Assembly (NCBI RefSeq): GCF_900156285.1
Contig: NZ_FTNC01000008.1
Coordinates: 62,001-126,000, forward strand
DNA length: 64,000 nucleotides
DNA from: Halanaerobium kushneri
GTDB taxonomy: Bacteria > Bacillota > Halanaerobiia > Halanaerobiales > Halanaerobiaceae
Direction of reading: 5' to 3'
The notes beneath the pieces were generated by a model that was not told the origin of the DNA, made no database searches, and was given only the letters and a program-made list of their open reading frames with translations. Each line of letters opens with the position of its first letter. Within the stretch, counting starts at the first letter, position 1. Shown here piece by piece: positions 1,869-33,372 of the stretch. Position numbers and translations under genes: made by a program.

Positions 1869-1891
1869 AAAATGAAATTGGAGTGATATTG

Positions 1892-3637
1892 ATGGTTTTT
1901 GAAATTCCAAAATCAAAAAAGGAAATATTGAAAAAGAAATTAAAATTTATTTATGATCAGGAGACAGCAGAAGAATTTTACCCTGAATTAGAATCATTTA
2001 TTCATGATTTTGCCGAAAAACATCCAGAGTTGAGAGAGAAGAATAAAAATGCGGCCAGACTGAGTGAAAAAGACAGTGTAGTCATCTGTTATGGAGATCA
2101 TATTCAGGCAGAAGATGAGAACCCACTGCAGAGCTTAAATAATTTTTTTGAAAATCACTTAAAAGAAAGTATCAGTACAGTTCATATTTTGCCATTTTTC
2201 CCTTATTCATCTGATGACGGTTTTTCGGTTATTGATTATAAGGAGGTCAATCCTGACTTTGGTCAGTGGTCAGATGTAGAAGATATTAGAGAAAACTTTT
2301 CTTTAATGTTTGATGCTGTAATTAACCACATTTCTGCAGAGAGTGAGTGGTTTAAAAAGTATAAAAAACAGCAGGGTAAATATCAGGATTATTTCATTGA
2401 GGCAGATCCAGAACTTGATTATTCTGATGTAACAAGGCCGAGAGCCAAACCGCTTTTAACTGAGGTGGAAACAGCTGCGGGTAAAAAACACGTCTGGACA
2501 ACCTTTAGTCCGGATCAGATTGACCTTAATTATGAGTCAACAGATTTAATGCTTGATATTATAGAAGTACTTTTATTTTATGCTGCTCAGGGAGCAGAGA
2601 TAATTCGCCTGGATGCTATTGCTTATCTCTGGAAGGAGATTGGAACAAGTTGTATTCACCTCCCTGAAACTCATAAAGTGATTCAGTTATTTAAAGAGAT
2701 TTTTAAGCTTGTGGCCCCGGAGACATTAATTTTAACGGAGACTAATGTTCCTCATGAGGAAAATATAAGTTATTTTGGTAATGGTGTTGATGAAGCAGAT
2801 ATGGTCTATAATTTCACCCTGCCTCCACTTGTGCTTTACAGCTTTTTAAAAGGAGATTCGACAAAGCTGACTGAATGGGCTAATTCATTAGAGGAATTGG
2901 ATCAGGGCAATTACTTTTTCAATTTCCTGGCCTCACATGATGGTGTAGGTTTAAGACCTGTTGAAGGTATTTTAAGTGAAAAAGAGATTGAAAAAGTAGT
3001 AGATAAAGTCAAGGCCAAAGGTGGTCTCGTTTCTTATAAGACTAACTCTGATGGTTCAAAGAGTCCCTATGAGTTAAATGTGACTTATGTAGATGCAGTT
3101 AGAGATAAAGAAAAGGACTTAAAGACTCAGGTAGCTCAGTTTATGGCTTCCCAGTCAATTATGCTTTCCATGCAGGGAGTTCCAGGTATTTATCTCCATT
3201 CTCTACTCGGTTCTGAAAACTATCAAGAGGGTGTAGAAGAAAGTGGAGCCAATAGAAGAATCAATAGAGAGAAACTGGATAGAGATCAACTTTTAGCAGA
3301 GTTAAATGAGAAAGGTTCTTTTAGAAAAAAGGTCTTTGATCAATATAGAAAGCTTTTACAGATTAGAAAGAGTAATCAGGCCTTTTCTCCAGCAGCTCAG
3401 CAGGAAATTTTCAATTTAGATAGCAGAATTTTTGCACTGCAGAGGGGGGAAGGCAGTGAGAAGATTACAGCATTAACTAATCTTTCTGCTGAAGAAGTGG
3501 AAGTTAAACTACCGGGAGAAATTTTTGTTGATTCTAAACAATGCTTAAATGATCTAATATCTGGTCAGGAATATGAATTGAAAAAAGAGCAGGTCGAAAT
3601 CACTTTAGAACCTTACCAGATCTCCTGGCTTAAATAA
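1892..3637 (+). CDS. GH13_18 phosphorylase (glucosylglycerate or sucrose phosphorylase type)
   Basis: This 581-residue alpha-amylase-clan protein has the sucrose-phosphorylase layout. Strand-level motifs run in order: HILPFFPYSSDDGFSVIDY, MFDAVINHIS, the nucleophile in IIRLDAIAYLWKE (Asp241), the acid/base in LILTETNVPHEE (Glu283) and the stabiliser in LASHDGVGLRP (Asp350). Family members cleave an alpha-glucoside with phosphate to give alpha-glucose-1-phosphate. Subfamily 18 includes sucrose, sucrose-6-phosphate, glucosylglycerol and glucosylglycerate phosphorylases. A glycerate kinase and a hydroxypyruvate/glycerate-type dehydrogenase follow immediately, which favours glucosylglycerate as substrate. 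ATG 1892 has TTGGAG eight bases upstream and is preferred to GTG 1883. A hairpin terminator follows. Plain sucrose phosphorylase remains possible. Confidence 0.82.
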   Translation: MVFEIPKSKKEILKKKLKFIYDQETAEEFYPELESFIHDFAEKHPELREKNKNAARLSEKDSVVICYGDHIQAEDENPLQSLNNFFENHLKESISTVHILPFFPYSSDDGFSVIDYKEVNPDFGQWSDVEDIRENFSLMFDAVINHISAESEWFKKYKKQQGKYQDYFIEADPELDYSDVTRPRAKPLLTEVETAAGKKHVWTTFSPDQIDLNYESTDLMLDIIEVLLFYAAQGAEIIRLDAIAYLWKEIGTSCIHLPETHKVIQLFKEIFKLVAPETLILTETNVPHEENISYFGNGVDEADMVYNFTLPPLVLYSFLKGDSTKLTEWANSLEELDQGNYFFNFLASHDGVGLRPVEGILSEKEIEKVVDKVKAKGGLVSYKTNSDGSKSPYELNVTYVDAVRDKEKDLKTQVAQFMASQSIMLSMQGVPGIYLHSLLGSENYQEGVEESGANRRINREKLDRDQLLAELNEKGSFRKKVFDQYRKLLQIRKSNQAFSPAAQQEIFNLDSRIFALQRGEGSEKITALTNLSAEEVEVKLPGEIFVDSKQCLNDLISGQEYELKKEQVEITLEPYQISWLK

Positions 3638-3676
3638 TTAAATAACATTTTCAATTTAATAAACCTCCTTAAGCTG

Positions 3677-3706
3677 GCCCTGCTGAAAAGTAGGGCTTTA
3701 ACTTTG
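3677..3706 (+). terminator. Rho-independent terminator after the GH13_18 gene
   Basis: The arms GCCCTGCT (3677-3684) and AGTAGGGC (3689-3696) form an eight-base-pair stem with one wobble and a GAAA loop, followed by a T-rich stretch. It separates the GT4/phosphorylase unit from the dehydrogenase/kinase unit. Confidence 0.7.
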
Positions 3707-3731
3707 CTTTTAGAACTGGCTGTTGTATAAT
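3704..3731 (+). promoter_or_regulatory. Candidate sigma-A promoter for the dehydrogenase and glycerate kinase genes
   Basis: A perfect TATAAT lies at 3726-3731, with a weak TTGCTT at 3704-3709 and a 16-base spacer. It follows the terminator directly and precedes the ATG at 3819 by 87 bases, so the dehydrogenase and kinase probably form their own transcription unit. Confidence 0.5.
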
Positions 3732-3818
3732 TAAAGCAGTTAAATTTAAGCTTTTTAAAAAGAGGAGTAATTGACTGAGAAAGATTTATGTTAAAGAAAT
3801 AAAAGGGAGGAATTTATT

Positions 3819-4793
3819 ATGAAAATAGTAGTTTTAGATGGCTATGCCTTAAACCCGGGTGATCTAAGCTGGGAAGGCATCAAAGAAATGGGAGATGTTG
3901 AAATTTACGAGCGGACATCAGCAGCAAAGATCTTAAAAAGAGCCGAAGGAGCAGAGGTGCTGCTGACAAATAAAACCCCCTTAAGCAGGGAGACAATTAA
4001 GGCCCTGCCTGAACTTAAATATGTAGGAGTACTGGCCACCGGTTATAATGTGGTTGATATTAAAGCTGCAGCTGAAAATAATATTGTGGTTACTAATGTT
4101 CCAACATATGGAACAAATGCAGTTGCTCAGTTTGTGATGGCTCTGCTTTTAGAAGTCTGCCATCATGTTGGTGAGCATAATCGAGCTGTTAAAAATGGGG
4201 CCTGGACTGAAGCAGATGATTTCTGTTTCTGGAATTATCCTTTAATTGAGCTGCAGGATAAGACGCTGGGGATAATTGGTTTTGGCAGTATTGGTCAGAA
4301 GACTGCAGAGCTTGCTTCAGCTTTTGGAATGAAGATTTTGTCTTATGATAGGAGTCCGGAGAAAAAAATTAATAATCCTGAAATTAAAACTGAGGAGATA
4401 GAATTTGTGGATTTAATGGATCTTTATAGAAGAGCTGATGTAATTAGCCTTCACTGTCCCCAAAGCAAAGAGACTGAGGGGATGATAAATAAATTTAGTA
4501 TTGCTCAGATGAAAGAAGGTGTAATTATTATCAATACTTCTCGGGGAGGATTAATAGTGGAATCCGATCTGGCAGCTGCTCTGGAAACAGGGAAGGTTAA
4601 AACTGCTGCTGTAGATGTGCTTTCTACTGAACCCCCGGCAGCATCAAATTCGCTTTTAAATTCTGATAGAACAATTATTACTCCTCATATTGCCTGGGCT
4701 TCTCAAGAAGCAAGACAGCGATTAATGAATACAGTTTTGGAGAATCTTAAAAGTTTTTTAGAAGGAAATGTGATTAATCAGGTTAATGGATAA
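3819..4793 (+). CDS. D-2-hydroxyacid dehydrogenase, glycerate dehydrogenase/hydroxypyruvate reductase type
   Basis: This 324-residue protein is a full-length member of the NAD(P)-dependent D-2-hydroxyacid dehydrogenase family. The cofactor fold appears as TLGIIGFGSIGQ (GxGxxG), followed by the family motifs NTSRGGLIVE (catalytic Arg), DVLSTEPP (Glu) and TPHIAWAS (catalytic His). NVPTYGTNAVAQFVMALLL is typical of hydroxypyruvate reductase-like members. GGGAGG lies shortly before the ATG. A glycerate kinase follows, so the likely reaction is interconversion of D-glycerate and hydroxypyruvate, tying glycerate released by the upstream phosphorylase to central or serine metabolism. A different 2-oxoacid substrate cannot be excluded. 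Confidence 0.87.
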   Translation: MKIVVLDGYALNPGDLSWEGIKEMGDVEIYERTSAAKILKRAEGAEVLLTNKTPLSRETIKALPELKYVGVLATGYNVVDIKAAAENNIVVTNVPTYGTNAVAQFVMALLLEVCHHVGEHNRAVKNGAWTEADDFCFWNYPLIELQDKTLGIIGFGSIGQKTAELASAFGMKILSYDRSPEKKINNPEIKTEEIEFVDLMDLYRRADVISLHCPQSKETEGMINKFSIAQMKEGVIIINTSRGGLIVESDLAAALETGKVKTAAVDVLSTEPPAASNSLLNSDRTIITPHIAWASQEARQRLMNTVLENLKSFLEGNVINQVNG

Positions 4794-4855
4794 ATAAATT
4801 AGTTAATTTATTTAAGTTTGATTATATTTTTTATTTTAAAATGGAGGCGATATAT

Positions 4856-5983
4856 TTGAAAATTCTTGTAGCACCTGATTCATTTAAAGGTTCATTAACT
4901 GCAATGGAAGCAGCTGAAAATATAGAAAGAGGAATATTAAAGGCTGATTCTGAAATAGAAGTTGACTTACTGCCAATGGCAGATGGAGGAGAGGGAACAG
5001 TTCAGTCTCTGGTTGATGCGACTGAGGGGAAAATTATAGAAAAAGAGGTAACTGGACCACTTGGAAATAAAGTTGAGGCTTTTTACGGACTGCTGGGGGA
5101 TGGCAAAACTGCTGTGATTGAAATGGCAGCTGCCTCAGGCCTTCCTTTAGTTCCTGAGGGAAAGAAGAATCCCTTAAAAACAACTACCTATGGAACAGGA
5201 GAGTTAATTGCCTCAGCGCTGGAGCATGGTGTTAAAAAAATAATCATTGGCATTGGTGGCAGTGCTACTAATGATGCCGGGGTCGGGATGGCCCAGGCTT
5301 TAGGAGCAGAAATCTTGGATGCCCAGGGTAAAGAAATTGGCTTTGGCGGCGGCAATTTAGATCAGATAGCAGAGATTAATTTAGAAAATTTAGATTCCAG
5401 ATTAGATGATATCGAAATCCTGGTGGCCTGTGATGTAGATAATCCACTTTTCGGTGAAAATGGCGCCGCCTATGTTTATGCTCCGCAGAAAGGAGCAGAT
5501 AAAGAGATGGTGGAAAAACTTGATCAAAATTTACGTTATTTTAATCAAATTGCAATTAAGGAATTAAATAAAGATCCAAATCAGATTTCGGGAGCTGGAG
5601 CAGCTGGTGGCCTGGGAGCAGGGCTTGTAGTTTTTTTAGATGCAGAACTAAAAGCAGGAGTAAATATTATCCTTGATATTATTGATTTTGAGAGCAAATT
5701 AAAAGGAGTAGACTTAGTGCTTACAGGAGAAGGAATGTTGGATGGTCAAAGTATTTATGGCAAAACTCCTGTTGGGGTTTCTAGAACTGCAGCTAAAAAA
5801 GGGATTCCAGTTGTTGCTGTAGCTGGGACCTTAGGAGATGGAGTAGAAAAAGTTTTAGAACACGGAATTAAATCTTATTTTTCTATTATTGATCGACCGG
5901 CTGATTTAAAAGAAATTGTAGAAAGAAGCCCCGAGCTTTTAGCTAATTTAAGTGAACAAATAATTAGAACTATTAAGCTTTAG
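4856..5983 (+). CDS. Glycerate kinase (GlxK/GarK family)
   Basis: The 375-residue product matches the bacterial glycerate 2-kinase family throughout: KILVAPDSFKGSLTAMEAA at the N-terminus, LLPMADGGEGTVQSLV, the glycine-rich IIIGIGGSATNDAGVGMAQ, ISGAGAAGGLGAGL and DLVLTGEGMLDGQS. It phosphorylates D-glycerate to 2-phosphoglycerate with ATP, feeding lower glycolysis. An ATG at 4841 is in frame, but it sits inside the Shine-Dalgarno-like TGGAGGCG. The TTG at 4856, about eight bases after that element, starts the conserved sequence exactly and is the better start. Together with the GH13_18 phosphorylase it would complete glucosylglycerate breakdown to glucose-1-phosphate and 2-phosphoglycerate. 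Confidence 0.92.
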   Translation: MKILVAPDSFKGSLTAMEAAENIERGILKADSEIEVDLLPMADGGEGTVQSLVDATEGKIIEKEVTGPLGNKVEAFYGLLGDGKTAVIEMAAASGLPLVPEGKKNPLKTTTYGTGELIASALEHGVKKIIIGIGGSATNDAGVGMAQALGAEILDAQGKEIGFGGGNLDQIAEINLENLDSRLDDIEILVACDVDNPLFGENGAAYVYAPQKGADKEMVEKLDQNLRYFNQIAIKELNKDPNQISGAGAAGGLGAGLVVFLDAELKAGVNIILDIIDFESKLKGVDLVLTGEGMLDGQSIYGKTPVGVSRTAAKKGIPVVAVAGTLGDGVEKVLEHGIKSYFSIIDRPADLKEIVERSPELLANLSEQIIRTIKL

Positions 5984-25827: not shown

Positions 25828-28800
25828 ATGATGAAAGATGTCTATTCATTAAATAATGAAGGTCAATTTATTATAAAAAATTATCAGGATCAGAAAACAT
25901 TTGCCAGTTTTCTGCCGGGGATTGCAGGTAAATTTGGTATTCCAATCTGGGCTTTCTATGTAAATCGCGGTCAGGGAATTGCAAGTTTTGGCTCTCGGGA
26001 TAAGGATAATGCCATCATGGAGTTTTATCCGGCCAATAAATCCTATCAGAATGTGGCAACTAAAGGTTTTCGGACCTTTATCAAATTAAAAGAGGAAAAT
26101 TTAGTTTATGAAGCATTTAGAAATTTAAATGAAAATATAGAAAGTAAGATGATTATTGAAGCGGATTCTCTAAAAATTGAGGAAGAAAATAATGAGCTTG
26201 GTTTAAAAACTACTGTCAGCTATTATATTCTGCCCAATGAGGATTTTGGAGCCCTGGTTAGAGAAGTCAAAGTAGAAAACACTTCTGATCAGGAAAGGGA
26301 AATTGAAGTTTTAGATGGAATGCCGATTTTAATTCCTTTTGGAATTGAAAATGGGGCTTTAAAAGAGGTCAGTCAGACTATTTCTGCCTGGGCTAAAGTA
26401 GATTCTTTTGAGACAAAAACTCCCTTTTATAAGCTGAGAGCTTCGGCTGAAGATGAGGCTGAAGTTAAAGAAATGACAGCCGGTAATTTTTATATTTCTT
26501 TTGAAAAGGGAAGCAGAAATCAACTTTTAACACCACTTGTCGACAGGGATGTAATTTTTGCTGAAAAGACCAGTCTGGAGACAGCACCGGGTTTTGCAAG
26601 AAAAAAACTGGCTGAATATCAGGGTGAACAGATTTTAGAAAATCGCTTCCCCTCAGCTATGGCAGCCACAGAAAAGAAATTAAAAGCTGGTGAAAAATTA
26701 GAAATTTCTTCAGTCTTTGGTAATCTGGCTGATGAAGAGAGATTAAGTGAAGTTAAAGATAGAGTTTTAGAATCTGGTTATCTAGAGCAGAAGCGTAAAG
26801 AGTCAAAAAAGATTCACAATTATTATGCAGATCATATCTTAACTGTCAGCGGCAATAAAGAGCTTGATGCTTACAGCCGTCAGACTTTTATGGATAACCT
26901 ACTCCGAGGTGGTTTTCCACTCACACTGGGAAAAAATAATAAAAAGACTTATCATATTTTCTCCCGCAAACACGGTGATTTAGAAAGAGATTATAATGAA
27001 TTTCTTTTAGAGCCCACATATTACTCTCAGGGAAATGGTAATTTTAGAGATGTTAATCAGAACAGACGCTGTGATCTCTATTTTAATCCGGAAATTAAGA
27101 GAGATAATCTAAAGGTTTTTGCCGATTTAATTCAGACAGATGGCTATAATCCCCTGGTAATTGAGGGAAGTAAATTTATCTTAACTAACAGTAATGCTCT
27201 TGAAAAAGTTATGGGAGAACTTACTGGTGAGGCAAAGGATAAATTTAGAAAGCGTCTGGAAAAAGCTTTTACACCAGGAGAAGTTGCTGTTTTCATTGAC
27301 AGCCATAATCTAGAAACTAAAACTTCTCTTACTGACTTTATAGACCTTTTAGTTGAAGAAGCAGAAAGCTGGACAGAGGCTAAGTTCGGTGAAGGCTACT
27401 GGATTGATCACTGGACCTACAACCTTGATTTAATCGAAAATTATCTGGCTTTATATCCGGAAAAAAAGGAAAGACTCCTTTTTGAAGATCAGGATTATAC
27501 ATTTTATGATTCCCATGTTCGGGTAAAACCCCGCAGCGATAAATATTTCTTAACTGAAAATGGAGTTCGTCAGTATAATGCGGTTGCTGCAGACAAGAAA
27601 AAACAGGAAGAGATTGCTTCCCGCAGTAAATTTCCATACTATCTGCGAACTAAAAAAGGAGAAATTTATAATACCAGTCTTTTCAACAAGCTCCTTACTT
27701 TAGTGCTCAATAAAACTGCCAGTCTTGACCCTGCTGGAATGGGAGTCGAAATGGAGGCTAATAAGCCCGGTTGGTATGATGCTTTAAATGGACTGCCCGG
27801 TATTTTTGGCTCATCAATTGCTGAGACAATGGAATTACTGAGGCTGGTTAGATTTATGTCAGAGGCTCTATCTGAACTCAATTTGGAGACAGAAATTGCT
27901 CTGGCAGCAGAAATCCATGATTTCTTTGCTAATCTTGATCACCTACTAACTGAACTTAAATCTGATCAGGACTTCCTTTACTGGCAGCAGGCCGGTAAAA
28001 TCAAAGAGGAATATAGGGAACAGGTGTTTGCCGATCTAACTGGCAGAGAAGTTGCAGTATCTATAAGAAAAATGATGGGCTTTTTAAATAAAGTTGAATC
28101 CAAACTTGAGCGGGCTGTAAGGCTGGCTGAAGAAGATAATGGACTCTTTACAATGTACTACAGCTATCAGGCTGAAGAATACGAAAAGCTCGGTCAGAGA
28201 TCAGAAAATGGACTGGGAAAGGTAGCTGTTAAGAAATTTAAGCAGCACAGACTGCCGCCATTCCTGGAAGCTCAGGTAAGAGGAATGAAAATTTTAAAAG
28301 ATGATCAGAAAGCTCAAAAACTTGCTAAAGCAGTTCAAAATAGTGAACTATTTGACGAGAAGCTTAAGATGTACAGAGTTAATGGTGATTTAAGTGCAGA
28401 AAGCTATGAGATTGGAAGAGCAAGAGCCTTCAGTCCTGGCTGGCTGGAAAATGGATCAATCTGGCTGCACATGGAATATAAATATTTACTGGAACTTCTA
28501 AAGAGTGGCTTATATGAAGAATATTATCAGGCAATCAATGATGCACTGGTTCCATTTCAGGATCCAAACAGATATGGTCGCAGTATTTTAGAGAATTCAT
28601 CATTTATCTTGAGTAGTTTAAATGGAGACACTAAAAATCACGGCCGCGGTTATATAGCAAGACTCAGCGGTTCAACTGCCGAATATATCAATATGTGGTC
28701 TTTAATGGCCTTTGGTGAACAGCCATTTAAGTATGAGTTTGAAGAATTAATCTATCAGCCGGAACCAAAATTAAGCGCAGATTTATTTACTGAAGATGAA

Positions 28801-29085
28801 AGAAAAGTAAAACTGCAGCTTAGTGAAACTGAGACAGCTGAAGTAGTGATTCCGGAAGCGGCATTTGCTCACAGATTTTTAGGGCAGACTCTGGTAATTT
28901 ATCATAACCCGAGCCGCAAAGATACATTTGGCGAGGATAAGGCCGAAATTTCAAAATACAAATTAACTGCCATTAATGGTAAAGAGTTTGAAGTTGAAGC
29001 TGGGGAGATAATTGGAGAACTTGCTTATCAGATAAGAAATAGAGAATTTGAAAGAATAGATATCTTTTTAGTATCAGGTTCCTAG
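25828..29085 (+). CDS. Large GH94-like oligoglucan phosphorylase, possibly 1,2-beta-oligoglucan phosphorylase
   Basis: At 1085 residues this is far longer than ordinary GH94 enzymes. It matches the size of 1,2-beta-oligoglucan phosphorylases and of the beta-1,3-oligoglucan phosphorylase families GH149 and GH161. An N-terminal beta-rich region (FASFLPGIAGKFGIPIWAFY) precedes a long helical barrel with FGEGYWIDHWTYNLDLIENY and the probable catalytic acid in NKPGWYDALNGLPGIFGSS (Asp651). No signal peptide is present. It is the third gene of the operon and ends at a bidirectional terminator. It would shorten beta-glucan oligomers with phosphate, while the GH94 partner finishes the disaccharide. 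Phosphorylase is likely; linkage and family number are uncertain. Confidence 0.75.
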   Translation: MMKDVYSLNNEGQFIIKNYQDQKTFASFLPGIAGKFGIPIWAFYVNRGQGIASFGSRDKDNAIMEFYPANKSYQNVATKGFRTFIKLKEENLVYEAFRNLNENIESKMIIEADSLKIEEENNELGLKTTVSYYILPNEDFGALVREVKVENTSDQEREIEVLDGMPILIPFGIENGALKEVSQTISAWAKVDSFETKTPFYKLRASAEDEAEVKEMTAGNFYISFEKGSRNQLLTPLVDRDVIFAEKTSLETAPGFARKKLAEYQGEQILENRFPSAMAATEKKLKAGEKLEISSVFGNLADEERLSEVKDRVLESGYLEQKRKESKKIHNYYADHILTVSGNKELDAYSRQTFMDNLLRGGFPLTLGKNNKKTYHIFSRKHGDLERDYNEFLLEPTYYSQGNGNFRDVNQNRRCDLYFNPEIKRDNLKVFADLIQTDGYNPLVIEGSKFILTNSNALEKVMGELTGEAKDKFRKRLEKAFTPGEVAVFIDSHNLETKTSLTDFIDLLVEEAESWTEAKFGEGYWIDHWTYNLDLIENYLALYPEKKERLLFEDQDYTFYDSHVRVKPRSDKYFLTENGVRQYNAVAADKKKQEEIASRSKFPYYLRTKKGEIYNTSLFNKLLTLVLNKTASLDPAGMGVEMEANKPGWYDALNGLPGIFGSSIAETMELLRLVRFMSEALSELNLETEIALAAEIHDFFANLDHLLTELKSDQDFLYWQQAGKIKEEYREQVFADLTGREVAVSIRKMMGFLNKVESKLERAVRLAEEDNGLFTMYYSYQAEEYEKLGQRSENGLGKVAVKKFKQHRLPPFLEAQVRGMKILKDDQKAQKLAKAVQNSELFDEKLKMYRVNGDLSAESYEIGRARAFSPGWLENGSIWLHMEYKYLLELLKSGLYEEYYQAINDALVPFQDPNRYGRSILENSSFILSSLNGDTKNHGRGYIARLSGSTAEYINMWSLMAFGEQPFKYEFEELIYQPEPKLSADLFTEDERKVKLQLSETETAEVVIPEAAFAHRFLGQTLVIYHNPSRKDTFGEDKAEISKYKLTAINGKEFEVEAGEIIGELAYQIRNREFERIDIFLVSGS

Positions 29086-29226: not shown

Positions 29227-30219
29227 TTAGTCGGCTACTATTGCTTCAATTGCAGCCAGTTCTTCGTTGGTAAAGCCTGTGTTATTTAAAGTTCCAGCAT
29301 TTTCGATAATCTGTTCAACCTTGCTGGCACCTACGAGAACAGAAGTAACTCCCTGTTCTAAGATCCAGGCTAAAGCCATTTGAGATAAACTCTGTCCTCT
29401 GTCAGCAGCAATATCATTAAGCTGTCTTACCTTGTCTAATTTTTCTTCAGTAATACTTTCTTCTTTGAGGAAGCCGCTTTCTTTGGCAGCCCTGGAGTCT
29501 TCCGGAATACCACCGAGGTACTTATCAGTTAAAAGCCCCTGAGCCAGCGGCGAAAAGATAATTGAACCCATTCCAACCTCTTCCAGTGTGCCTAAAAGAT
29601 CTTCTTCTTCTGACCAGCGATCAAAAATTGAATAATTATATTGATTTAAAAGCAGATTAACTCCCATTTTATCTGCAACTTCTACAGCTGCTTTAGTTTG
29701 CTCGGAGTTATAATTAGAGATCCCTACATAGAGAGCCTTTCCCTGGTCCTGAATCTGTTTTAAAGCACCGATTGTTTCTTCAAGTGGAGTATCTGGATCC
29801 GGGCGGTGATGATAGAAAATATCTACATAATCAAGTCCCATTCTTTTTAAACTCTGATCAATACTTGAAATCAAATATTTGCGAGAACCCCATTCACCAT
29901 AAGGTCCGGGCCACATATAATAACCAGCCTTTGAAGAAATAATTAATTCATCACGATAGGGTTTAAAATCTTTTTCCATTAAAATCCCCATTGTTTCTTC
30001 CGCAGAACCGGCCGGTGGTCCGTAATTATTGGCAAGGTCAAAGTGAGTAATTCCCAGATCAAAAGCTTTGCGCAGCATTTTGCGGGCATTTTCCAGAGTA
30101 TCAACCCCACCAAAATTATGCCAGAGTCCTAAAGAAATTGCCGGAAGTTTTAGTCCGCTGTTTCCGGTGTAATTGTACTCCATTTTTTCATAACGATTTT
30201 CATCAGCTAAATAAGGCAT
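29227..30219 (-). CDS. Aldo/keto reductase, YghZ-like (glyceraldehyde-3-phosphate reductase family)
   Basis: This 330-residue NADPH-dependent reductase belongs to the AKR14/Kvbeta-like group. LPAISLGLWHNFGGVDTLEN, the active-site Asp and Tyr in HFDLANNYGPPAGSAEE, the Lys in ISSKAGYYMWPGPYGEWGS and the His in VDIFYHHRPDPDTP are all present, along with the coenzyme loop SPLAQGLLTDKYL. The ATG at 30219 follows AGGAGG by seven bases and is preferred to a TTG one codon earlier. Relatives detoxify methylglyoxal or reduce glyceraldehyde derivatives, so a detoxification role is plausible. It is convergent with the phosphorylase operon. Confidence 0.88.
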   Translation of the reverse strand: MPYLADENRYEKMEYNYTGNSGLKLPAISLGLWHNFGGVDTLENARKMLRKAFDLGITHFDLANNYGPPAGSAEETMGILMEKDFKPYRDELIISSKAGYYMWPGPYGEWGSRKYLISSIDQSLKRMGLDYVDIFYHHRPDPDTPLEETIGALKQIQDQGKALYVGISNYNSEQTKAAVEVADKMGVNLLLNQYNYSIFDRWSEEEDLLGTLEEVGMGSIIFSPLAQGLLTDKYLGGIPEDSRAAKESGFLKEESITEEKLDKVRQLNDIAADRGQSLSQMALAWILEQGVTSVLVGASKVEQIIENAGTLNNTGFTNEELAAIEAIVAD

Positions 30220-30273
30220 CAAAAAACCTCCTTTTGGAATTTTTATTTTAATTTTTATTCAATTCTAATTTAT

Positions 30274-30346: not shown

Positions 30347-31735
30347 TTAGTCCTTCAATCTTTGAAAAACAGTTAACAAATAGGCATAGGCTACATCAAT
30401 ATTCATCCACCAGCGCAGTAAAGTTCCCTTTAAAAAACCATATTTCTTTTCTTTTAGAGTTTGATAATATTCGAACTTTTGCCAGCTATAACCGTTTCCC
30501 TGTCTTTTTGCTATAAAATTCAGTCCGGCTTCGATACGATAGCGGTATTTAAAATGTTCAGGCAATTTATTCCAGAGTTCACGCCTTAAGGCTCTTTCAC
30601 CAGAATTTAAAGCAAATAGAGTTACTGCTTTTTGCATAACGTTATTTCTTACTCCAATGAACATATCATATTTTCTTTTAACAACAGGTTGAACAATTTG
30701 CTCAACAATTTCTGGTGTCAGACCTTTTAAGTCAGCATCACAGAAAAATAAAATTTCTGCATCAGTATTTTCAACTCCCTGCTGCATTGATTGAGCTTTG
30801 CCCTGATTACTATTATTTTTTAATAATTTTACTTCCTTAAATCTGCTTACGACTTCGGAAGTATTGTCAGTTGAGCCATCATCAATTACTATAACTTCAT
30901 TTAAAATATCAGTCTCAGTTAAAATATCTAAAACCCGACTAATATTTTGCCCCTCATTATAGGCTGGTATAATAGCAGCTATTTTATTTTCTTCTTTTTT
31001 CGTTTCTCTGCTAATCGATTTATAAAAATCCCTAATATTTTCGTAAATTTCAGAACTTTTATTTGAAAAAAATAGATTATGATTTTTATTATCCACAATT
31101 TTTATATAGTGAGGTGCCTCAATCTTACGGCTGATATAACCAATTGCTTTATAATTACCGATCGGATCATTTTTAGAATAGATGGTTAAAACAGGACAGT
31201 TAATTTTAGGCAGCTCTGTTTTTAATAATTTATTTGCTTTTTTAACAATTTTTAGACCATTTGCATGCATCTGTTTATAATAAAATGTTTGTTTTCGTAT
31301 TTCCTTTTCCTGATTTGAGATCGGTTTTTCCCAGTATTTTTTGAAAAAGCTGAGTATTGATAATCCCGGTAAATTAAAAGGAAATTTTAATTTATAAGGG
31401 AGACAGACATTAAAGACCCCATCAACAGGAAATTTACTGGCAAAATACATTGCCATTTGAGCTCCAAAAGAAACCCCCCCGAGAATAATTTGTTCATATT
31501 TTTCTAAATCAGCTTTTAGCTCTGGCTCAATTTGATTAGTAAAATCTTTTAATTTGATATTATCAAGATCCTGAACTTGAGTTCCATGGCCCTTAAGCAG
31601 CATTACCTTAACATCGACTGCAAGGTTTTTAGACAAATATTCCGGTAAACCATTAAAATCGTTTGGGCTACCTGTGTAGCCGTGAATTAAGAAAAATAAC
31701 GTTTTAGAATTTGATTTCAAATTAATAGTTTGCAT
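30347..31735 (-). CDS. Fusion of alpha/beta-hydrolase and GT2-like glycosyltransferase
   Basis: A single uninterrupted frame of 462 codons joins two enzymes. Residues 1-245 form an alpha/beta-hydrolase of the esterase/monoacylglycerol lipase type: LFFLIHGYTGSPNDF (oxyanion region), the nucleophile elbow LGGVSFGAQMAM, the acid in YSKNDPIGNYKA and the His in VDNKNHNLFFS. After a Lys/Glu-rich linker, residues 250-462 form a GT-A glycosyltransferase: AAIIPAYNEGQNI, VIVIDDGSTDNTSEV and FFCDADLKGLTPE. The later SGERALRR and RYRIEAGLNF loosely recall GT81/GpgS-type enzymes. ATG 31735 has GGAG eight bases upstream and is preferred to ATG 31759. No signal or membrane segment is evident. Substrates are unknown; a lipid or acylated glycoside is a guess. 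Confidence 0.8.
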   Translation of the reverse strand: MQTINLKSNSKTLFFLIHGYTGSPNDFNGLPEYLSKNLAVDVKVMLLKGHGTQVQDLDNIKLKDFTNQIEPELKADLEKYEQIILGGVSFGAQMAMYFASKFPVDGVFNVCLPYKLKFPFNLPGLSILSFFKKYWEKPISNQEKEIRKQTFYYKQMHANGLKIVKKANKLLKTELPKINCPVLTIYSKNDPIGNYKAIGYISRKIEAPHYIKIVDNKNHNLFFSNKSSEIYENIRDFYKSISRETKKEENKIAAIIPAYNEGQNISRVLDILTETDILNEVIVIDDGSTDNTSEVVSRFKEVKLLKNNSNQGKAQSMQQGVENTDAEILFFCDADLKGLTPEIVEQIVQPVVKRKYDMFIGVRNNVMQKAVTLFALNSGERALRRELWNKLPEHFKYRYRIEAGLNFIAKRQGNGYSWQKFEYYQTLKEKKYGFLKGTLLRWWMNIDVAYAYLLTVFQRLKD

Positions 31736-31983
31736 AAAACCATCTCCATAATATATCATTTATGATTTATTATTAACCTCTTAATTTATTATATCACTTT
31801 ATACCATAAATATTAAAATATTATTAAAAAATTCCATTAATAAATTATTAGCAGCTGAGTTTATACATAGATTTAATTAAAGTATTAATCGGGAAAATGG
31901 CAACTTTTTTGAAAACAATCCTGAGTAATTTGCTTTATTTTAACTTTTCTTGTAAAATAATTATATAGTCTAAAATTCAACTG

Positions 31984-33372
31984 GTGGTGGTTAAAATTAA
32001 GGACAAACGCACAGTTTTTTTATTTATTGGAATAGCAGTAGCTCTACTTATCTGGAATCTCGATCTACCCGGTCTTTCTTTAGTCGGACGGAAAATGTTT
32101 TCCATAACTCTGATGACAGTGATTTTCTGGGCTGCTAAAGTGGCTGATTCAGCTTATGTAGCAGCACTATTTTTGATGTTGATGTTAATTTTTGAGATTG
32201 CTCCGGCAGAAGAAGTCCTTTCTCTCTGGACTTCCCAGACGGTCTATCTGGTGATTGGGGCATATTTAATAGCAGCTGCAGTAGAGCAATCAGGTTTGGG
32301 GGAAAGGATTGCTTATAAATTTATTATTCACTTTGTGGATTCCTACAGGTCAATTATAGTTTCTATTTTTGCTCTAACCTTTCTTTTAAGTCTGATTATT
32401 CCACATCCCTGGCCGCGAGCATTTATCATTATGTCCGTTATGTCAGTAGTAATTGAAAATGCTGGAATTAACAAAAAGGATGCCTCCAAGATTGGGCTGA
32501 CTGTTTTTGCAGCTTCCATTCCAATATCAATGATTTTTTTAACGGGGGAAAGTACTCTTAATTTTATGACACTGGAGTTTGCAGGAGTTGATTTAAGCTG
32601 GGGAAGATGGTTTTTATATATGGGAGCTCCAGCAGCACTGGCAGCTTTATTAACTATGTTAGTAATTTTAAAATTATTTCAGCCTGATGAAGAAGTGGAG
32701 ATCAATAAAAAACAAATCGGGCAGAGATTATTAGACTTAGGGATGATGTCAGCAGAAGAGCAGCGGACAGTTTTCTGGTTAATCGTAGCTGTGGTTTTAT
32801 GGATGACGGACTCATTTCATGGTGTTGAACTGGGGTGGCTTACCCTGACGATTGCAGTAATGATGAGCCTGCCAGTGAGTGGAGATATACTAAAAAAAGA
32901 AGACTGGAACCAGGTTCCAATCAAAGTCTTAATTTTTTTAACGGCAGCAGTAGCAATTGGTAAGGTAGGTTCTCTAACCGGGATGAATCAGTGGCTGGCT
33001 GAAGTAGTACTGCCGGCTCAAACTCCAAATAATATGTTGATTTTTGCCCTGATGACAGCTGGAATTTCGATCTTTCTACACATGTTTTTGGGAAGTGTAA
33101 TTGCGGTGATGGGAATAGCTATTCCAGCCTTTATTATTTTTGCCAAAAGCTGTGGTATTAATCCATTGGTACCTGCTCTTTTTGTCTATACTGCAATTGG
33201 TACTCATTATATCCTCCCTTTTCATCATTTAAATATTCTGGTTGGAATGGGAAAAGAAAATGGTAATTACAGTGAAAAGAGTGTCATTAAGCTGGGCATT
33301 CCTCTAACAGCAGTATCTCTAATTACTGTTGTTTTTGAATACTTTTGGTGGCAGTTAACAGGTTTAATTTAA
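31984..33372 (+). CDS. SLC13/DASS-family anion:Na+ symporter
   Basis: This 462-residue protein has eleven to twelve hydrophobic segments arranged as two inverted repeats, as in SLC13 (divalent anion:Na+ symporter) and related ion-transporter superfamily members. VYLVIGAYLIAAAVEQSGLG, LLSLIIPHPWPRAFIIM and PALFVYTAIGTHYILPFHH correspond to re-entrant and pore regions. Substrates in the family include dicarboxylates, sulfate and phosphate. The start is uncertain: GTG 31984 or 31987 with no clear Shine-Dalgarno (only CTGGTGG). About 225 bases separate it from the divergent fusion gene, AT-rich with no convincing promoter pair. The usual SNT substrate motif is not obvious, so the substrate is left open. 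Confidence 0.78.
   Translation: MVVKIKDKRTVFLFIGIAVALLIWNLDLPGLSLVGRKMFSITLMTVIFWAAKVADSAYVAALFLMLMLIFEIAPAEEVLSLWTSQTVYLVIGAYLIAAAVEQSGLGERIAYKFIIHFVDSYRSIIVSIFALTFLLSLIIPHPWPRAFIIMSVMSVVIENAGINKKDASKIGLTVFAASIPISMIFLTGESTLNFMTLEFAGVDLSWGRWFLYMGAPAALAALLTMLVILKLFQPDEEVEINKKQIGQRLLDLGMMSAEEQRTVFWLIVAVVLWMTDSFHGVELGWLTLTIAVMMSLPVSGDILKKEDWNQVPIKVLIFLTAAVAIGKVGSLTGMNQWLAEVVLPAQTPNNMLIFALMTAGISIFLHMFLGSVIAVMGIAIPAFIIFAKSCGINPLVPALFVYTAIGTHYILPFHHLNILVGMGKENGNYSEKSVIKLGIPLTAVSLITVVFEYFWWQLTGLI

Follow-up and report, generated by a model that had tools for sequence, protein, structure and literature searches.

A mobile gene fusion of an alpha/beta-hydrolase and a GT-A glycosyltransferase in Halanaerobium

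We describe a single gene in Halanaerobium kushneri that joins an alpha/beta-hydrolase to a GT-A glycosyltransferase in one 462-amino-acid protein, a combination that is real and apparently undescribed. The gene lies at 30347..31735 on the minus strand of the analysed window, a 64,000-nucleotide stretch of contig NZ_FTNC01000008.1, and is supported by its open reading frame, Pfam matches, four full-length orthologues and dN/dS ratios. Both component enzyme kinds are already known; their fusion is narrowly distributed and mobile. The first-pass annotation had not recognised the domain pair as a described enzyme, and none was found in the libraries searched, nor was a description of a hydrolase-glycosyltransferase fusion found in the open-licence literature.

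The gene runs in one uninterrupted frame from an ATG at 31735 to a stop codon at 30347-30349, and both halves score above curated Pfam cut-offs in this same frame. An alternative in-frame ATG at 31759 would yield 470 amino acids; the 462-amino-acid start is preferred because GGAG directly precedes the ATG at 31735, where the ribosome-binding region GGAGATGG occupies 31736..31751 (minus strand). The first-pass description of one frame linking a complete hydrolase to a complete glycosyltransferase through a short charged linker proved accurate, with exact coordinates, an intact catalytic triad and intact DDGSTD and DAD motifs. The linker itself, residues 239-251 (~13 residues; 30983..31021, minus strand), is short and charged, and sequence comparison of the copies shows it to be variable, with 31% identity between the window copy and the others. 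The dN/dS ratio of the glycosyltransferase half is 0.05-0.09 in all pairs, and that of the hydrolase half is 0.13-0.17 in five pairs and 0.27 in the nearest pair (dS 0.06). Purifying selection acts on both halves; from these low ratios and the linker identity it follows that both domains are selected, and the linker not visibly so. A frame error, which the first-pass annotation had named as one outcome that would undo its reading, is not what we find, since three other assemblies carry the uninterrupted 462-amino-acid fusion elsewhere and dN/dS is low, which also argues against chance. An artefactual junction of two genes, by frame or assembly error, therefore has negligible probability: nothing speaks in its favour, and it is ruled out by four assemblies, four loci, identical architecture and purifying selection on either side of the junction.

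The N-terminal domain (residues 1-238; 31022..31735, minus strand) appears to be of the Est30/monoacylglycerol-lipase type, as indicated by Pfam, matches to solved structures and alignment. PF00561 matches residues 13-103 with 27.0 bits, above its gathering cut-off of 25.8, and PF12697 gives a weaker match over residues 15-223. The domain encodes an oxyanion motif HGYTG (18-22), a nucleophile elbow GVSFG with Ser89, Asp190 (SKNDPIG) and His219 (NKNHN), and the three triad columns are invariant when it is aligned full-length with stand-alone Firmicute hydrolases. Its nearest relatives among solved structures are Est30 carboxylesterases and bacterial monoacylglycerol lipases (E 1e-9 to 1e-14), which share the triad layout and oxyanion motif, and hydrolysis of short acyl esters or monoacylglycerol would be predicted from this sequence similarity. 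However, the fusion hydrolase is only ~19-28% identical to the stand-alone proteins, its elbow reads GVSFGA where these have GLSMGG, its N-terminus is shorter and a glycosyltransferase is attached. The full-length AF2 model, built from four sequences only, was poor, with a pLDDT of 41 that is too low for reading the hydrolase fold or the relative orientation of the two active sites, and a wider full-length alignment was left out because its hydrolase rows were misplaced. On viral contigs, tblastn detected no hydrolase relatives, and a DNA-pattern search detected one (L211).

The C-terminal GT-A domain (residues 252-462; 30350..30982, minus strand) was recognised by Pfam, a structural model, structure matches and alignment. 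It carries DDGSTD (285-290), DAD (333-335), SGERA (378-382), RIEAG (400-404, including Glu402) and Gln425, and ends in an amphipathic helix with a modest helix moment. The GT2 family PF00535 matches residues 254-370 with 81.5 bits, above its gathering cut-off of 23.3. The domain model (pLDDT 80.7) has GpgS (Z 21.2, 202 residues, rmsd 2.6), MpgS (Z 20.8) and ArnC (Z 20.6) as practically tied best structural matches, with DPMS at a Z of ~19, and the best NCBIfam match is GpgS (4e-17), at 62.3 bits against an equivalog cut-off of 262. In the GpgS of M. tuberculosis, Asp136 binds the metal and His258 stands at the place of the MgS metal-ligand His217, while PLSGE and Glu232 point towards the donor sugar, and the carboxylate of the acceptor is held in place by Val186/Thr187 (PMC2581804). 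The fusion shares with GpgS (family GT81) the GT-A fold and a DxD motif, and its SGE (378-380) and Glu402 align with PLSGE and YGVE. It differs in its low identity (22-24%), far under the curated cut-off, in the absence of the GR-x-T acceptor motif and of the extended C-terminal region, and in the added hydrolase. The acceptor stretch GRVTE (Val186/Thr187), present in Tsukamurella GpgS, is absent from all aligned fusions, and by family pattern the metal-ligand His258 is replaced by Gln425 in all of them. Judging from these motifs, the resemblance to GpgS would hold on the donor side and fail on the acceptor side. The GpgS-like traits that had been noted at first pass thus stand in part, namely the SGE motif, the donor Glu and the (tied) top structural match, whereas the acceptor motif, the metal His and the NCBIfam score contradict them, and membership in GpgS is ruled out on these three counts. 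Because a few stand-alone relatives (L196, L204) also have Gln at the metal-His position, this residue need not imply lost activity. No true GpgS was found elsewhere in the genome by a whole-genome NCBIfam search, in which the fusion scores 60.8 bits.

The polyprenyl-phosphate transferases ArnC, DPMS and GtrB have the same GT-A fold (Z 19-20.6 for ArnC and DPMS), and their genomic company resembles that of the fusion in two species. ArnC and GtrB possess membrane parts, whereas the fusion protein has no transmembrane segment (maximum KD19 1.09).

Among relatives within the phylum, the glycosyltransferase half is 30-38% identical to a very common stand-alone GT2 of ~215 amino acids, and its profile matches 225 of 398 sampled phylum genomes at E <= 1e-34. 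These stand-alone proteins (L042:8702-9346, L043:8288-8935, L033, L036 and many others) bear the motifs SGQRA, GR-x-x-TDLAQ and THVMKEEK, and in the loci inspected are often encoded near ispG, proS, mgtC-like or polC genes; the first match of their profile among solved structures is GpgS. To our knowledge they have no assigned function. They share with the fusion the domain layout, SG-x-RA, Y/F-x-V/I-E and KE-x-K-x-G. However, most of them have both GR-x-x-TDLAQ and SGQRA, and the fusion, which has neither and forms a separate clade, does not belong to this widespread family. Tree inference instead placed the fused glycosyltransferase as sister to stand-alone phage glycosyltransferases (support 100/98), apart from the phylum family; GpgS and two other rows are on long branches and their placement is unsure. 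The fusion-phage group shares GERA, QT/QV-x-KE-x-K and a Gln where most stand-alone proteins have His, and lacks GR-x-x-TDLAQ. Unlike the fusion, the phage proteins (IMG/VR L105, L106, L229 and L230; 39-42% identity for L105 and L106) have no hydrolase and reside in an HD/kinase, SSB-like and UvsX/RecA-like cassette. Four IMG/VR loci (L227, L228, L229 and L230) encode a conserved phage glycosyltransferase of the fusion's subfamily next to an HD/kinase-like gene, with UvsX/RecA-like and usually also SSB-like genes close by, a placement resembling membership of a replication or DNA-modification cassette. The PHROGs annotation of the glycosyltransferase is GtrB-like.

The same 462-amino-acid fusion is encoded by three further Halanaerobium genomes, 79-82% identical and each time at another locus, namely H. 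saccharolyticum MA284_T2, H. congolense DSMZ 11287 and Halanaerobium sp. MA284_MarDTE_T2 (filed under another genus in the genome set). A fifth copy, in genome G003, is a fragment that stops short close to the end of a contig. The 12 same-genus genomes, the window's included, hold three full copies and one fragment, and a further genus of the family adds one copy. No further fusion was detected among 519 genomes searched (relatives, class and phylum) or when 84,980 species were scanned using conserved peptides, and no match in the plasmid collection spanned 80% of the query. Scanning genome contigs with the single protein returned nothing, and scanning with the four-sequence alignment recovered the three other species.

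In the window the fusion lies between an aldo/keto reductase gene (29227..30222, minus strand) and a sodium:sulfate/dicarboxylate-type (SLC13) transporter gene (31984..33372, plus strand). These two genes are adjacent without the fusion in three genomes (G008, G009 and G011), and G004 has a different gene at this locus; loss elsewhere could explain part of the empty sites. The copies of H. congolense (G005) and the MarDTE strain (G013) are 97% identical (dS 0.09), whereas their IspG proteins are 71% identical and the PLD-type protein beside the MarDTE fusion is 72% identical to its counterpart, and we attribute this to a recent transfer between the two lineages. Contamination as the source of the identity is ruled out because that PLD-type gene, at only 72% identity, is adjacent to the fusion on the same contig. 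The segment common to the transferred copies comprises the gene with about 70 bp before and 13 bp after it, and the GC content of the window gene is 31.5% compared to 38.7-40.3% in the flanking genes. Inspection of flank repeats at the window site revealed neither a convincing target-site duplication nor convincing transposon ends. A palindrome, TTGAATTTAATTCAA, is found ~10-35 bases before the fusion ATG at different loci in three genomes (L054, L055 and L056, with one mismatch in L056) and is absent from the window copy; it may act as an operator or belong to the mobile unit.

The fusion follows a VTT(DedA)-PAP2-LssY_C gene in H. saccharolyticum and precedes one in H. congolense, with gaps of 5-30 bp, and the surrounding islands encode ArnT-like PMT_2 proteins and, variously, WaaA, a LAB_N protein, a Kdo/WaaP kinase, an O-antigen ligase and a sugar epimerase (WaaA, LAB_N and epimerase were identified by eye from sequence). 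The same Kdo/WaaP kinase is upstream of the G003 copy, and the gene upstream of the MarDTE copy encodes the PLD-type (cardiolipin-synthase-like) protein. DedA proteins may act as Und-P flippases and their fusions to PAP2 have been read as Und-PP recycling proteins (PMC10127716), and LPS outer membranes occur in Halanaerobiales (PMC5007114). Because the fusion gene moves alone, its two adjacencies to DedA genes carry less weight than conserved synteny would. The window copy is outside such an island, the genome's own DedA-PAP2-LssY gene being on contig C33 and the fusion on C32, and G009 has this gene and no fusion.

Several Halanaerobium encode triple-domain DedA(VTT)-PAP2-LssY_C membrane proteins (L040:11028-13136, L039:6285-8441, L065:3475-5595 and L066:6224-8344), with genes for ArnT-like transferases close by in G001, G005 and G009. 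Genomes G000 and G009 are almost identical around this gene (L065/L066), whereas their transporter and reductase genes are only 82-83% identical, which suggests a recent exchange of the island. On the Fuscovulum blasticum plasmid pRsa (L185:5479-8705), an overlapping operon encodes an LpxH-like phosphoesterase, a ceramide glucosyltransferase (GT21), a VTT protein and an SGER-type glycosyltransferase; the latter is related to that of the fusion and its gene overlaps the VTT gene.

The first-pass annotation had also connected the fusion to a glucosylglycerate module in the window. The genes concerned (1883-5983, plus strand) encode a GH13 phosphorylase-like protein, a dehydrogenase-like protein and a glycerate kinase, and are probably for glucosylglycerate breakdown rather than synthesis. 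We reject the connection based on distance (25 kb), the opposite strand and the missing GpgS acceptor motif and metal His; the lipid-carrier and LPS genes beside the fusion in two of three relatives also speak against it. A further window feature, a 1085-amino-acid ORF at 25828-29085, comes directly after a GH94 gene and a small ORF of cupin-like type; it has no match to Pfam at E 1e-10 and looks like a divergent phosphorylase.

We tentatively propose that the fusion is a mobile, Halanaerobium-specific, two-domain cytoplasmic enzyme whose targets are envelope lipids or the undecaprenyl-phosphate/LPS system; donor, acceptor and acyl substrate, as well as any joint action of the two sites, are inferred. 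The GT-A domain, of GpgS/polyprenyl-phosphate-transferase type, could use a nucleotide sugar to add a hexose to a membrane-borne acceptor; by analogy with GpgS, this might be a retaining transfer of glucose from UDP-glucose. The Est30/monoacylglycerol-lipase-type domain could cleave an ester-bound acyl group off the same or a neighbouring lipid. Membrane association would be through the C-terminal amphipathic helix. Modification of envelope lipids or lipid carriers is favoured over osmolyte synthesis because the protein is not a GpgS, its sister group is of phage type and in two genomes it lies beside a DedA-PAP2-LssY gene within islands with ArnT-like genes. The adjacency in two genomes in opposite gene orders within ArnT-like islands, the PLD-type and Kdo/WaaP kinase genes upstream of two other copies, the Fuscovulum operon, the ArnC/DPMS structural neighbours, the GtrB-like PHROG and the carboxylesterase/monoacylglycerol-lipase matches are all consistent with an envelope role. 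However, the window copy sits between a reductase and a transporter gene away from its own DedA-PAP2-LssY gene, G009 has that gene alone, a mobile gene may simply have inserted into variable islands, and the lack of a transmembrane segment and the modest helix moment also count against an envelope role. A more specific version is highly speculative, namely that the protein is a single-chain deacylase-glycosyltransferase which deacylates an envelope lipid (or a lipid A/Und-P-linked intermediate) and adds a sugar at the position thus exposed, in a coupling with lipid-carrier recycling by DedA-PAP2-LssY, as a new lipid-remodelling type spreading horizontally in halophilic diderm Firmicutes.

Alternatively, the fusion could serve co-expression of two enzymes that act alone with no common substrate. 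We regard this as somewhat unlikely; the short, poorly conserved linker, the separate and different constraint on the domains (dN/dS about 0.14 versus 0.07) and the stand-alone relatives of each half are in agreement with such a tethered pair, but the copies are fused at constant length in 4/4 cases, also through transfer between genera. An unlikely reading is that the glycosyltransferase makes a glucosylglycerate- or glucosylglycerol-like solute while the hydrolase prepares the acceptor by release or trimming (glycerol from monoacylglycerol, for instance). The GpgS matches, the retained donor motifs and a halophilic host with no true GpgS elsewhere suit an osmolyte or other soluble-metabolite enzyme, whereas the score far below the cut-off, the deletion of the stretch with Thr187, the exchange of His258 for Gln, the distant GH13/glycerate kinase genes and a patchy presence, unexpected of a core osmolyte enzyme, do not. 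It is less probable still that the gene is a phage or mobile-element accessory gene (moron) modifying surface glycans, e.g. altering phage adsorption. Its closest glycosyltransferase relatives are from phages, it moves as a single gene with a short upstream sequence, its PHROG is GtrB-like and its GC content is below that of its flanks; however, no phage or integrase genes were seen beside the fusion at any copy, and the phage homologues lack the hydrolase and belong to a replication rather than a seroconversion cassette.

In this two-domain protein both active sites are kept; the gene is confined to one genus-level group and moves between genomes on its own. If the two active sites act on a common substrate, deacylation and glycosylation of an envelope lipid would be linked in one polypeptide. 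The fusion would then help to explain envelope variation in diderm halophilic Firmicutes; otherwise it would be a neat if minor gene fusion.
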